A DNA stretch of 22,192 nt from a virus. Below the pieces are notes generated by a model, which was not told the origin of the DNA, did no database searches, and saw nothing but the letters and a program-made list of their open reading frames with translations. Made by a program: the position numbers and the translations under genes. The stretch lies in the IMG/VR virus record IMGVR_UViG_3300037882_004711, positions 1 through 22,192 of that record; one strand, written 5' to 3'. This document shows positions 2,311 through 9,814 of this stretch, piece by piece (positions within the stretch are counted from its first letter, which is position 1; the number at the start of each line of letters is the position of its first letter).

Positions 2311-4813
2311 GTTTTCCCTCCTTCAACCATCTCATCAAGTAGCTGATGTACGTACTTCTGCTTTTGTCAATTTAATTCTTGATTCAACTGAAGATTACGA
2401 TGTTCAAATCGATTATATTCGGAACGAGCGAAATATCTCCTCAGTCGTAATCGATGACATAACAACTACAAGTAACGGCACGGTTGTTTTTTCAATTCCC
2501 AATAAATTTGACAATATTTCAGAGATTTTAATTGGTTCTAATGTTTATGTATTGGCTGTTGATTCAACTTCCTTAAAGCCTGGGGAGTTTATATATGATC
2601 CTTCAACTAACAAAGTAACATTATTTTTGTTGCCTGGAGATCGACTAAATTCCAGTGCTGTTATAGTTCGCACAGAGGATGAAATTGATTCGTCAAAGGC
2701 AAAAATAATTTCCGATTGTTGTGATGGTTATTTTTCTGAACGATTGCAGAAGTGGAATCCGAACGGCAGCTTAATAATCCAACACACTTTTCAACAAGAG
2801 CCTAGCTTTGCTTTTACCTTTACCGCTTGTAGCGAGCAAGAAAAATCGATTTTACGTGAATTAGCTAATGGCACTATCCATGAAGCTTTTGGGTGGCAAT
2901 GGGCAGTTTCTAATCTGCAAATAACTCGCCAAAAACCCAGGCTTCAGAAATTAGAAACCGATCCGCTTATTTATCAAATAGATGTGACGGTAACTTGTCA
3001 ACATTTTTATGCCAGCTTGGGAACGCCATCTAGATCGCCGATGGATAAATTATTGAAACTTCAAAAGGTATCTCCTAGCAATCCTTCAACTTATTTAACA
3101 AACAGGAATTTAGCTGATTTAGTAAAAGAAGCTGGAGTTAATTATCTTGGACGTAACATACAACTGCGAACCCCTAAATCAACTAGCTCAACGGAAACGA
3201 CAACAATTAGGCAAATATTAGAGGAGAGAGGAGTTACTGTCGGTGGGTTTATTTACTATAGTCCTGCTGGGGTGGAGTTGAAACAATGGGCGTTAATTTT
3301 TATTCCAGGTGTCGATCAAAAAGAGAGAACAATCAAGGAACATATAATTAAAAATTCAGATGTGCGATCGCCAGAAATTACCTATAACTACAATGGACAT
3401 GGTTCAATTGTAAACGACGTCAAGCTGCATACTGAGTATCGTAATGTAAAAGTTAGCTTGGACTTTGACCCAGATCAGTCAGATGATAGTGATAGCGTTG
3501 GCATAAAAGAGTTATGGGCTTTTGAAAATTGTGAAAGTTTTGGGGAGATGTCTTCTGCTGCGGAGCGTTTTGACTGGTATTTAAAACAACCATCAGTAGA
3601 CATTCTGAGAAATCCTGGAATTAATTTTGATGCGGGGGGAGTGGTCAAAAAAGCGACTAAGACTATTTATTTAAATGGCTCTCCCGTATTCCAACAAGAA
3701 TGGAGGGCAGGTTATGCTTTTAGCAGCGATCAAGTTCATCGGATTAGAATAACCGATCAAGGCGGAATAATTATTGAGCTAGAAACTGCTACTTTCCCTC
3801 AATCTTATTGGCAAGAAATTTACCAAGCTACTTCCGACTGGCGATACGACGATAACGGTTATTTGACGAGCATAGATGTATCTGGTCGTGAGTTGGCTAG
3901 ATTACAACAAGAATCAAATAAACTTGAGGCGGTTTCTTTAAAAGCTCAAGCTTATGCTAATGCAATTGACATAGGCGGAATTACTGTTCCTGACCCTAGT
4001 TTAATGGCTCAAGCAGCTGCTTATCAATTTACGGAAAATCTCCCAGTTGAAGATACTACTTTATACCAATTAAAAAGACATCGAGATTACTATGACGATA
4101 TTGTAAAACCTGCTTGTGGGAAAGATCCTGATTGGGTTGAGCCTAAGTTTTTATCGAGAATGTGGCGATCGCAAGAGAATTATTTTATTAAAGAAAATCC
4201 CAAAAACAACGAATTTTATACTTATCCTCCCATTTTAAGTGGTAGATTCTCCAGAGAATCTCAAGAGGTTTCAATCCTGAGTAAAGATAAATACGAAGTC
4301 AGAAATAGAAAACAAAATTCTGAAGGAGAATATTTTAAGAATGCAAGAGCAGAAGGCAATACCGATTATTCACAAGGACGACCCCCCACTCACACTCGCT
4401 TAGAAAAAGAAATTGATCCTGATGTTAAAAAAAATCCCAACTACAAAAAGTATAAAGATACTAATTACTATTTAGATTCAGGAGCAGTTTTTGGAGGAGG
4501 AACAGACGCAGAAGAAGGGAGTAAAGGGTATCCTGATTTAGATACTCCTTCTGCGGTACTGGCTGCTGCCACAACTGAATTGTCAATTATCAATTCTCAA
4601 AATGCTTGTACGACTAGCATTGACATTGAGTGGCGCAGAGGGATTTCAGTCGGGGATTTTGCTGTGTTTCAAGGGAAACGCTGGGTGATTTTGGGGATTG
4701 AGGATAATAGGCGAATTGAGTATAAAAATTTGAAAAGTGAAAGCTTTGTCTTGAAACTAGGATTATATTTAGATCCAGGATTATTATTGACAGATAGATC
4801 GGTTGATTGTTGA
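2309..4813 (+). CDS. Large probable tail or baseplate protein (834 residues)
   Basis: This is the only long plus-strand gene. The first ~140 residues look like a beta-rich domain, with phrases such as KPGEFIYDPSTNKVTLFLLPGD. Residues ~140-245 include IIQHTFQQEPSFAFTFTA. The middle contains PEITYNYNGHGSIVNDVKLHTEYRN, the C-terminal third has a charged linker rich in Asp, Lys and Tyr, and the end is another beta-rich segment. There is no signal peptide, membrane span or enzyme motif. Size and composition fit a tail-tip or baseplate hub-like protein, but I cannot name the family. The ATG at 2309 is the only plausible start: an in-frame stop lies at 2252-2254 and no other ATG follows early. It has no Shine-Dalgarno and shares CATG with a divergent gene. 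The stop is followed at once by heptads. Confidence 0.65.
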   Translation: MFSLLQPSHQVADVRTSAFVNLILDSTEDYDVQIDYIRNERNISSVVIDDITTTSNGTVVFSIPNKFDNISEILIGSNVYVLAVDSTSLKPGEFIYDPSTNKVTLFLLPGDRLNSSAVIVRTEDEIDSSKAKIISDCCDGYFSERLQKWNPNGSLIIQHTFQQEPSFAFTFTACSEQEKSILRELANGTIHEAFGWQWAVSNLQITRQKPRLQKLETDPLIYQIDVTVTCQHFYASLGTPSRSPMDKLLKLQKVSPSNPSTYLTNRNLADLVKEAGVNYLGRNIQLRTPKSTSSTETTTIRQILEERGVTVGGFIYYSPAGVELKQWALIFIPGVDQKERTIKEHIIKNSDVRSPEITYNYNGHGSIVNDVKLHTEYRNVKVSLDFDPDQSDDSDSVGIKELWAFENCESFGEMSSAAERFDWYLKQPSVDILRNPGINFDAGGVVKKATKTIYLNGSPVFQQEWRAGYAFSSDQVHRIRITDQGGIIIELETATFPQSYWQEIYQATSDWRYDDNGYLTSIDVSGRELARLQQESNKLEAVSLKAQAYANAIDIGGITVPDPSLMAQAAAYQFTENLPVEDTTLYQLKRHRDYYDDIVKPACGKDPDWVEPKFLSRMWRSQENYFIKENPKNNEFYTYPPILSGRFSRESQEVSILSKDKYEVRNRKQNSEGEYFKNARAEGNTDYSQGRPPTHTRLEKEIDPDVKKNPNYKKYKDTNYYLDSGAVFGGGTDAEEGSKGYPDLDTPSAVLAAATTELSIINSQNACTTSIDIEWRRGISVGDFAVFQGKRWVILGIEDNRRIEYKNLKSESFVLKLGLYLDPGLLLTDRSVDC
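2316..2323 (-). promoter_or_regulatory. Strong Shine-Dalgarno for the gene at 2122-2310
   Basis: Read on the minus strand this is AAGGAGGG with a five-base spacer to ATG at 2310-2308, a near-perfect anti-16S match. Most genes in this window lack such a site. It lies inside the first codons of the divergent plus-strand gene, so any minus-strand promoter must sit within that gene. Confidence 0.75.
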
Positions 4814-4816
4814 AAA

Positions 4817-4850
4817 ATGAGTTATGAGTTATGAGTTATGAGTTATGAGT
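4817..4850. repeat. GAGTTAT heptad array
   Basis: Nearly five tandem copies of a 7-bp unit directly follow the stop of the plus-strand tail gene. The complementary orientation (ATAACTC) fills 5757-5853, so the two arrays form an inverted pair around the disrupted four-helix-bundle gene. The minus-strand pseudogene would read into this array and stop in it at 4836-4838. Confidence 0.85.
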
Positions 4851-5141
4851 TTTGGAAATTAAAGAGTTTAACATTCTAGATATTTCAGTTATTTTATCGC
4901 TTAATAACTCCGCTTTTTTGAATCAATATAACCCAAATCTCTTGCAATTAAAATCTGGCATTCTACCTCGGCTGCACTACCTTTTGCAATATACAAAAAT
5001 CTAGTCAATTCCTTGTTACTGCCTCTTCCACAGCCTTCACTTATGTTAGATTCAATACTGACACTTGCCCTTCTTATCTGGTTAGTTAAACCAAATTTTT
5101 CGCTATCTGGGAAACTAGAACTTATTTTGTATAAATTTACC

Positions 5142-5668
5142 TTGACTGCTCACCGCCCTAAAGGGATCGGTGATTCTAGCTTTTAGCTTTTAGCTTTTAG
5201 CTTTTAGCTTCTGATTAAGAGCATTTATCATCCTAGAAACCTCATTTATCTTATCTGTTAATAGCTGTGATTTGCTAGTATCTAAATATCCTAAGTCTCT
5301 GGCTATTAATATCTGACACTTAACCTCGCAAGCACTACCCTGAGCTATGTCTAAAAAACGGCTAAATTCTTTATCACCATTGCGTCCACATCCTTCGGAA
5401 ATATTGGATTCAATACTAACAGATGCTCGTCTAATTTGATTGGTTAAACCAAATTTTTCCTCCGAAGGAAAATCTTTAGTTATCTTATATAAATTTACTG
5501 TGAAGCTATGTGCTTTCTGCCAAACTTTGAGTTGCGTGAAGTCTTGCATTTAACTAAGTAGTCGCTATTAGTTAATATTGTACTACAAAAGCTAAAAGCT
5601 AATGGCTAAAAGCTAATAGCTAACGTAAAGTCGTCCTTCAAGGACGAGGCTTTAAACCCAGAGCGACG
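5142..5668 (-). mobile_element. Non-autonomous IS608-type (IS200/IS605) element carrying a four-helix-bundle gene
   Basis: Read on the minus strand, TTAC (5672-5669) is followed by 15 bases, AAAG (5653-5650) and a 17-base hairpin (5647-5631, TCGTCC arms). At the other end GAAT (5176-5173) precedes a hairpin (5171-5152, arms ACCG..CCCT/AGGGCGGT with a two-base AT bulge), and after six bases TCAA (5145-5142) ends the element. In IS608 the left and right cleavage sites are TTAC and TCAA and the internal guides are AAAG and GAAT, placed 5' of the subterminal hairpins. All four match here. There is no target duplication, as expected for single-strand HUH transposition. No tnpA or tnpB is present. 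AGCTTTT-type heptads lie just inside both ends, inverted to one another. The only gene is at 5190-5549. Confidence 0.8.
5190..5549 (-). CDS. Four-helix-bundle protein (23S rRNA IVP / Avd-like family), intact
   Basis: The 119-residue length is typical of this family (TIGR02436, PF05635). Diagnostic parts are the N-terminus FTQLKVWQKAHSFTVNLYKI, the central GLTNQIRRASVSIESNISEG with its paired arginines, and the alpha-helical C-terminus ending LNQKLKAKS. Relatives form pentameric four-helix bundles; one branch (Avd) serves diversity-generating retroelements, others are encoded in 23S rRNA intervening sequences, and most have no known role. No reverse transcriptase or rRNA is nearby. The gene is the sole cargo of an IS608-like element and is nested in a paralogue. 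Its last codons (KLKAKS and TAG) are built from the flanking GCTAAAA heptads. TACAAT at 5582-5577 is a possible -10. Confidence 0.85.
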   Translation of the reverse strand: MQDFTQLKVWQKAHSFTVNLYKITKDFPSEEKFGLTNQIRRASVSIESNISEGCGRNGDKEFSRFLDIAQGSACEVKCQILIARDLGYLDTSKSQLLTDKINEVSRMINALNQKLKAKS

Positions 5669-5756
5669 GTAAAATTATGCGCTTTCTGCCATACTTGTAA
5701 TTTTTTAAAATCCTGCACTTTAAATACTACTTAATAAATATAAGTATGTTTATTGT

Positions 5757-5853
5757 AACTCATAACTCATAACTCATAACTCATAACTCATTACTCATTA
5801 CTCATAACTCATTACTCATTACTCATAACTCATAACTCATAACTCATAACTCA
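5757..5853. repeat. Long ATAACTC/ATTACTC heptad array
   Basis: About fourteen tandem 7-bp units, mostly CTCATAA with some CTCATTA, make this the longest array in the window. Its last three bases are the stop codon (TGA on the minus strand) of the fibre gene at 5851-8136. It is inverted relative to the array at 4817-4850. Confidence 0.85.
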
Positions 5854-8288: not shown

Positions 8289-8333
8289 TTCTATAAAATT
8301 TGATTTTTGCTTAATTCCATAAAAAAGTGTTTT

Positions 8334-8372
8334 ATTACTCATTACTCATTACTCATTACTCATTACTCGTTA
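8334..8372. repeat. ATTACTC heptad array forming the end of a gene
   Basis: About five tandem ATTACTC units. On the minus strand the last codons of the gene at 8356-9222 (SNE then TAA) are read from GAGTAAC and GAGTAAT units, so the array supplies its stop codon. Confidence 0.85.
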
Positions 8373-9744: not shown

Positions 9745-9814
9745 GCTTTTAGCTTTTAGCTGTTAGCTTTTAGCTGTTAGCTGTTAGTTTTTTTTGCTAA
9801 AAGCTAACAGCTAA
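9745..9814. repeat. AGCTTTT/AGCTGTT heptads forming a long hairpin
   Basis: The arms 9756-9774 and 9796-9814 are perfect 19-base inverted repeats made of TTAGCTG/TTAGCTT heptads, with a 21-base loop containing T8. The structure fills the gap between two fibre genes, ending right at the TAA of the gene at 9815. It could attenuate transcription or protect an mRNA end. It has the same heptad family as the inside of the IS608-like element. Confidence 0.8.

Follow-up and report, generated by a model that had tools for sequence, protein, structure and literature searches.

An IVP gene between inverted heptad arms within an IS608-type non-autonomous element of a viral genome

How did a small gene for a four-helix-bundle protein come to lie between the ends of a transposon that carries neither tnpA nor tnpB? 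This question is raised by positions 5142-5668 of the IMG/VR virus record IMGVR_UViG_3300037882_004711, probably from a cyanobacterial virus, of which we analysed positions 1 to 22,192 (the window, 22,192 nucleotides in length). The gene, here called gene A, belongs to the IVP/S23 family, which is also encoded by intervening sequences (IVSs) of 23S rRNA. Our analysis favours, with a probability of roughly 0.8, two layers: an IS608-type element on the outside and, on the inside, a mobile IVP unit in which the gene stands between two mutually complementary arms of heptad repeats (arm-gene-arm).

The outer element and the gene that it interrupts

In IS608, TTAC and TCAA are the cleavage sites, AAAG and GAAT serve as guides, hairpins lie subterminally, and insertion occurs 3' of TTAC without target duplication. 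A reading of this DNA made from the sequence alone (the sequence-only reading) had claimed the four tetranucleotides and both hairpins for this stretch, and all were located exactly at 5142-5668, on the minus strand. The element, its parts and the two IVP genes concerned are as follows.

5142-5668, minus strand: non-autonomous IS608-type (IS200/IS605) element, 527 bp, delimited by end motifs, family members and the interrupted homologue
5669-5672, minus strand: TTAC target and left cleavage site (GTAA on the plus strand), adjoining the left end
5630-5668, minus strand: left end, with CGTCGCTCTGGGTTT, guide AAAG (5650-5653) and subterminal hairpin CCTCGTCCTTGAAGGACGAC (5630-5649)
5142-5176, minus strand: right end, with guide GAAT (5173-5176), hairpin (5151-5172), AGCAG and cleavage site TCAA (5142-5145)
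5190-5549, minus strand: gene A, an intact gene for a 119-aa IVP/S23 four-helix-bundle protein (PF05635 match)
5669-5718, minus strand: 5' part of gene B, a second IVP gene cut by the element, with a GTG start
4862-5141, minus strand: 3' part of gene B, also frameshifted near its end

Read along the minus strand, TTAC is followed by the 15 nt of CGTCGCTCTGGGTTT, AAAG and a hairpin at one end, and GAAT by a hairpin, AGCAG and TCAA at the other, so that cleavage sites and guides stand beside subterminal hairpins as in IS608. The layout of the right-end hairpin and TCAA was as described earlier, while the spacer between them has five bases (AGCAG) by the present pairing instead of the six given before. 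Gene A is indeed the sole gene between the ends, and no tnpA or tnpB lies inside 5142-5668. Its protein matches PF05635 (23S_rRNA_IVP; E 4.5e-42) and, below threshold, the bAvd model, with nothing else in Pfam and no Y1 (HUH) transposase; solved structures of its relatives (2gsc and 2rld) have five chains each. Folded as single-stranded DNA, 5142-5668 gives z = -5.0.

The element lies within gene B, which had gone unnoticed in the earlier reading: this second IVP gene is split into two halves, at 4862-5141 and 5669-5718, and in a repeat search 4922-5101 and 5666-5720 each matched parts of gene A at a DNA identity of about 71%. When the flanks were joined by script, one frame ran through the junction (...VWQKAHNFTVNLYKI... 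/ VQDFKKLQVWQKAHNFTVNLYKISSSFPDSEKFGLTNQIRRASVSIESNISEG...), in frame with gene A; with the element present, this frame enters element sequence and then meets a stop. Because the joined gene B restores the frame, the element boundaries given by the homologue agree with those given by the end motifs, and the insertion took place on the 3' side of the target tetranucleotide and left no target duplication. Thus, 5142-5668 is a real insertion into a second, diverged IVP gene. Divergence between the two genes has reached saturation at silent sites, and their dN (nonsynonymous divergence) is 0.27, indicating old paralogues under constraint. Both copies sit between phage genes, not inside a 23S rRNA helix.

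The sequence-only reading had proposed a search for several copies with matching ends at different sites, and such copies were found in Cyanobacteriales. The left end (at most 3 mismatches) occurred in 5 of 293 genomes and the right end in 4 of 391, and copies sharing these ends occupy different sites in G001, G021, G048, G122 and G138. Seven elements have both ends and no gene (L305/L115, L309, L310/L116, L311, L117, L119 and L121; about 85-241 bp); TTAC adjoins the left end in five of them, and inverted heptamer stretches without a gene lie inside L305, L309 and L310. Among the IVP loci examined, the TGAGCAGTCAA right end was seen only in the window and at one related Pleurocapsa locus (L008, the same as L096), whose IVP gene shares 90% identity with gene A. 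At 2900-3360 of that locus (G001:C83), an apparent group II intron containing an HNH-type open reading frame (ORF) splits the IVP gene, and the IS608-type right end is kept. Since the ends recur in other genomes and gene B is split at the motif-defined boundaries, they are not a product of chance; the identification of 5142-5668 as a non-autonomous IS608-type element is well supported, and TnpA could plausibly mobilise it in trans. No annotated phage was found carrying gene A, and when viral contigs were scanned for relatives, none turned up for gene A, for the right-end hairpin or for the adjacent 834-aa protein.

Inverted heptad arms of IVP genes

Both IVP genes of the window are bordered by heptads in inverted orientation, and a similar hairpin occurs without a gene:

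5177-5213: 3' arm of gene A, inverted heptads of AGCTTTT type, overlapping the stop, 89% complementary to 5586-5622
5586-5622: 5' arm of gene A, inverted heptads
4818-4850: 3' arm of gene B, inverted heptads of TGAGTTA type, 100% complementary, score 36
5756-5853: 5' arm of gene B, TAACTCA/TTACTCA on the plus strand (repeat search)
9745-9792: inverted heptad hairpin without a gene, of the AGCTTTT type seen in the arms of gene A (GGCTTTTAGC... / GCTAAAAGCTAACAGC), between two phage genes

The arms of gene A reach a score of 27 in inverted and 10 in direct orientation, and the window holds an IVP/S23 ORF between complementary termini. Separately, an ORF at 8327-8370 translates to YSLLITHYSLL, which resembles a further heptamer array in the phage genome.

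As IVP genes with the arm layout of genes A and B, built from other heptamers, were also present in two Pleurocapsa genomes, we extended the comparison to 80 IVP loci from the phylum, scoring complementarity between the 200 bp upstream and the 200 bp downstream of each gene with a cut-off of at least 18. Inverted arms flanked 38 of 61 IVP genes in Cyanobacteriales versus 4 of 256 control ORFs of the same regions (Fisher 1e-28), and 18 of 21 IVP genes in other cyanobacterial orders versus 0 of 122 controls. The control ORFs were unmatched for intergenic space, and therefore the direct-orientation and swapped-arm controls matter: same-orientation repeats were scored at only 4 of 61 genes in Cyanobacteriales and 3 of 21 in other orders, and when arms were swapped between loci, 3.3% of 3660 pairs scored. 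Arms were likewise rare at size-matched control ORFs (2/123) and absent from tnpA genes (0/6), and dereplication at 70% identity left 44 of 64 genes with inverted and 6 of 64 with direct repeats.

The arms are periodic, with excess identities of 0.38, 0.37 and 0.33 at lags 7, 14 and 21 in Cyanobacteriales and a period of 7-8 in other orders. They match each other within a unit and not between units, the heptamer differing from copy to copy (25 distinct heptamers in 30 heptamer units). All ten plasmid IVP loci examined have arms, and beyond the cyanobacteria (Nitrospirae, Omnitrophota, Patescibacteria, Ignavibacteriae and others) inverted arms were found at 53% of 32 IVP genes at score 16 versus 1.5% of controls. 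In a metagenome-assembled genome of Nitrospirae, one IVP unit stands between two tRNA genes (L028, 2864-3565). As anatomy, the inner layer is well supported: inverted and mutually complementary arms, mostly of 7-bp repeats, are a hallmark of IVP genes.

Mobility of the arm-gene-arm unit and its carriers

Two loci were compared across the genus of G157, in which 16 species were searched. At locus 1 the unit is present in G157, G130, G392 and G394 and decayed in G184; in G391, G259, G291, G393 and G249 the gene is missing, and conserved flanks surround 82-172 bp of other sequence. At locus 2, between trpC-like and lpdA-like genes, the unit is found in G390, G393, G395, G391 and G264, and the gene is missing from G157, G130 and G394. 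Units of the two loci are 83-86% identical, with homology restricted to arm-gene-arm, and dN/dS values of 0.04-0.17 (dS, synonymous divergence), where computable for pairs of locus 1 and locus 2 units, show purifying selection on the IVP protein. G254 and G396 lack the gene, and there the two arms adjoin each other. Heptad arms joined directly, with no gene between them, also occur at locus 2 in L296 and L297, and the arrays present at the trpC-lpdA site differ from species to species.

The unit is not tied to one type of transposon. In G066 (L158, L161-L166), an IVP gene with heptamers was amplified inside a mini-transposon of terminal inverted repeat (TIR) type (AACTGACGTTACGCA ... TGCGTAACATCAGTTA), which makes the IS608-type element of the window one of at least two unrelated carriers. 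At one locus (L262, G238:C1:4802360-4805000), a RAYT-like gene with the palindrome GATCCCCGACTTCTT..AAGAAGTCGGGGATC on both sides stands where related species hold an IVP unit. Taken together, the arms at IVP genes, the presence of the unit at one of two loci according to species, and the purifying selection lead us to conclude that the arm-gene-arm unit is itself probably mobile and that the mini-transposon is one carrier of it. Mobility of gene A with its arms is accordingly moderately supported.

Several observations weigh against the two-layer reading. Gene-less sites often contain other repeats and behave as hot spots, so insertion and loss are hard to separate and differential loss may account for part of the pattern; for the unit, neither a target duplication nor a target rule was found. 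About one third of the IVP genes in Cyanobacteriales lack clear arms, and certain IVP genes stand in apparently stable operons on conjugative plasmids. Arm mismatches of GU and AC type are balanced (68:61), giving no sign of selection on RNA pairing. As for the outer layer, the left end is not recognisable at L008, and the comparison with tnpA-bearing elements that had been suggested earlier yielded no match to the ends of the window among the Y1_Tnp loci of G001 and G002. Finally, the binding of an IVP oligomer to the heptads and a role of the protein in movement are hypothetical steps. A relative with an empty site was also sought for the nrdB/nrdA plasmid copy, and none was found.

Proposed mechanism, rival readings and known systems

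On the two-layer reading, the element entered an older IVP gene as single-stranded DNA 3' of TTAC, and TnpA, supplied in trans, would have cut and joined it, reading AAAG and GAAT beside the hairpins as guides. The mini-transposon picked up the arm-gene-arm unit, an event with a parallel in another cyanobacterium, where the carrier is an unrelated mini-transposon of TIR type. For the manner in which the unit itself moves, we infer that its arms would pair when it is single-stranded, during replication or as a transcript, into a long stem whose loop contains the gene. An IVP oligomer, given that relatives were crystallised with five chains, might then bind the arm repeats and offer the hairpin to host enzymes for moving or copying. 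As the unit has no recognisable transposase, the enzyme would have to come from the host or from another element. Arm-to-arm template switching could maintain complementarity while the heptamer drifts.

The sequence-only reading is supported in that the element is of the non-autonomous IS608 type and has a four-helix-bundle gene as its sole cargo; the partnership that it proposed between this gene and the transposon family is not supported. It is very improbable that IS608-type elements carry the IVP gene as functional cargo, selected for helping the transposon (for example as a single-strand binder). The gene is intact between exact ends, and L008, at a different site, again combines the gene with this right end, but among the IVP loci examined no others have such ends, and the seven complete elements have no gene; nearly all IVP genes thus lack the ends and nearly all elements lack the gene, which moreover has inverted heptad arms of its own and rides the unrelated mini-transposon of G066. 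It is also unlikely that IVP genes are static host genes, on either side of which common cyanobacterial heptamer arrays pile up as around other intergenic genes. Solo arrays are abundant, and those at the trpC-lpdA site vary by species; such piling up, however, would not explain why the arrays are inverted and match within units but not between them, with direct orientation almost never seen, why arms are shared with non-cyanobacterial phyla and missing from tnpA genes and size-matched ORFs, or why units differ between loci.

Two further readings concern the arms. IVP genes may insert into the loops of existing heptamer hairpins, much as IVSs replaced 23S rRNA tetraloops, so that the arms would be the target and no part of the unit. 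The gene-less hairpins at window 9745-9792, L305 and L310, the arm-to-arm junctions of L296 and L297 and an IVS inside 23S rRNA (L239, below) lend some support to this less probable account, but the moved unit shares its arms as well as its gene at both loci, and the junctions are equally explicable by gene loss. More doubtful is the idea that the arms act in RNA, with the transcript folding and RNase III cutting the stem as in 23S IVSs, for RNA-based movement or expression control. The layout is that of the IVSs excised by RNase III (PMC4990558), and L239 lies inside 23S rRNA, but GU mismatches are not in excess of AC mismatches in the arms.

Whether IVP genes in general form a widespread and previously unrecognised class of mobile elements, with a four-helix-bundle gene, self-complementary heptad arms and no transposase of their own, is a question on which we are evenly divided; 23S-rRNA IVSs would then be members that landed in rRNA, and some orphan cyanobacterial heptamer arrays would be gene-less derivatives. 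The finding of this family between inverted heptad arms outside rRNA, at loci filled or empty by species, ties the origin of IVSs to the cyanobacterial heptamer arrays and makes mobility testable, and the window offers a clean case in which an IS608-type mini-transposon captured such a unit and afterwards landed in another IVP gene. A study of the TAACTGA heptamer reports direct repeats in Beggiatoaceae and cyanobacteria, and a term search of it gave no mention of IVP/S23 (PMC4679880). We found no accepted origin for the cyanobacterial arrays in the literature, and nothing relevant that links IVP to heptamers, or to IS200, in cyanobacteria, although this search covered open-access texts only and is weak evidence.

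Among known systems, the 23S rRNA IVSs (for example of Leptospira and Coxiella) are close to the inner layer. They have complementary termini and an S23p ORF and are cut by RNase III, older ideas see in them either a remnant of transposition or a mobile element that its ORF helps to move, and their function and origin were still called unclear more than 25 years after discovery (PMC4990558). The same protein family between complementary arms is common to both, and in Azospirillum lipoferum we found an unannotated IVP gene with heptad arms inside a 23S rRNA gene (L239, NC_016586.1 11901-17245); this locus is among the ten plasmid loci mentioned above. Unlike IVSs, neither the copies in the window nor any surveyed locus except L239 gives a sign of an rRNA location, which was ruled out by motif and, for 15 loci, by Rfam (no rRNA), and the loci analysed in detail differ between intergenic loci. 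Gene A and its arms can be regarded as a free-standing counterpart of the IVSs that encode this family, moderately supported as a mobile unit.

Avd, the accessory protein of diversity-generating retroelements, is a distantly related four-helix bundle, but gene A falls outside the bAvd family (34.5 bits against a cut-off of 40); no reverse transcriptase was noticed among the window ORFs, and no search was made for template or variable repeats. With IS608 and its non-autonomous IS200/IS605 derivatives, which resemble miniature inverted-repeat or palindrome-associated transposable elements (MITE/PATE-like), the outer layer shares hairpins, TTAC/TCAA, AAAG/GAAT and insertion 3' of TTAC without duplication; it differs in carrying an IVP gene with heptad arms in place of tnpA/tnpB, and no autonomous partner was found.

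RAYTs (tyrosine transposases associated with repetitive extragenic palindromic sequences, REPs) are Y1 (HUH) transposase genes flanked by inverted copies of their own dispersed repeat, with REPINs as gene-less inverted REP pairs. IVP units are likewise small genes flanked by inverted copies of their own dispersed repeat, accompanied by dispersed solo repeats and gene-less inverted pairs, and at one IVP locus (L262) a related species has a RAYT-like gene. However, the IVP protein is a four-helix bundle and not a Y1/HUH transposase, and the repeats of its units, tandem heptamers, change from copy to copy.
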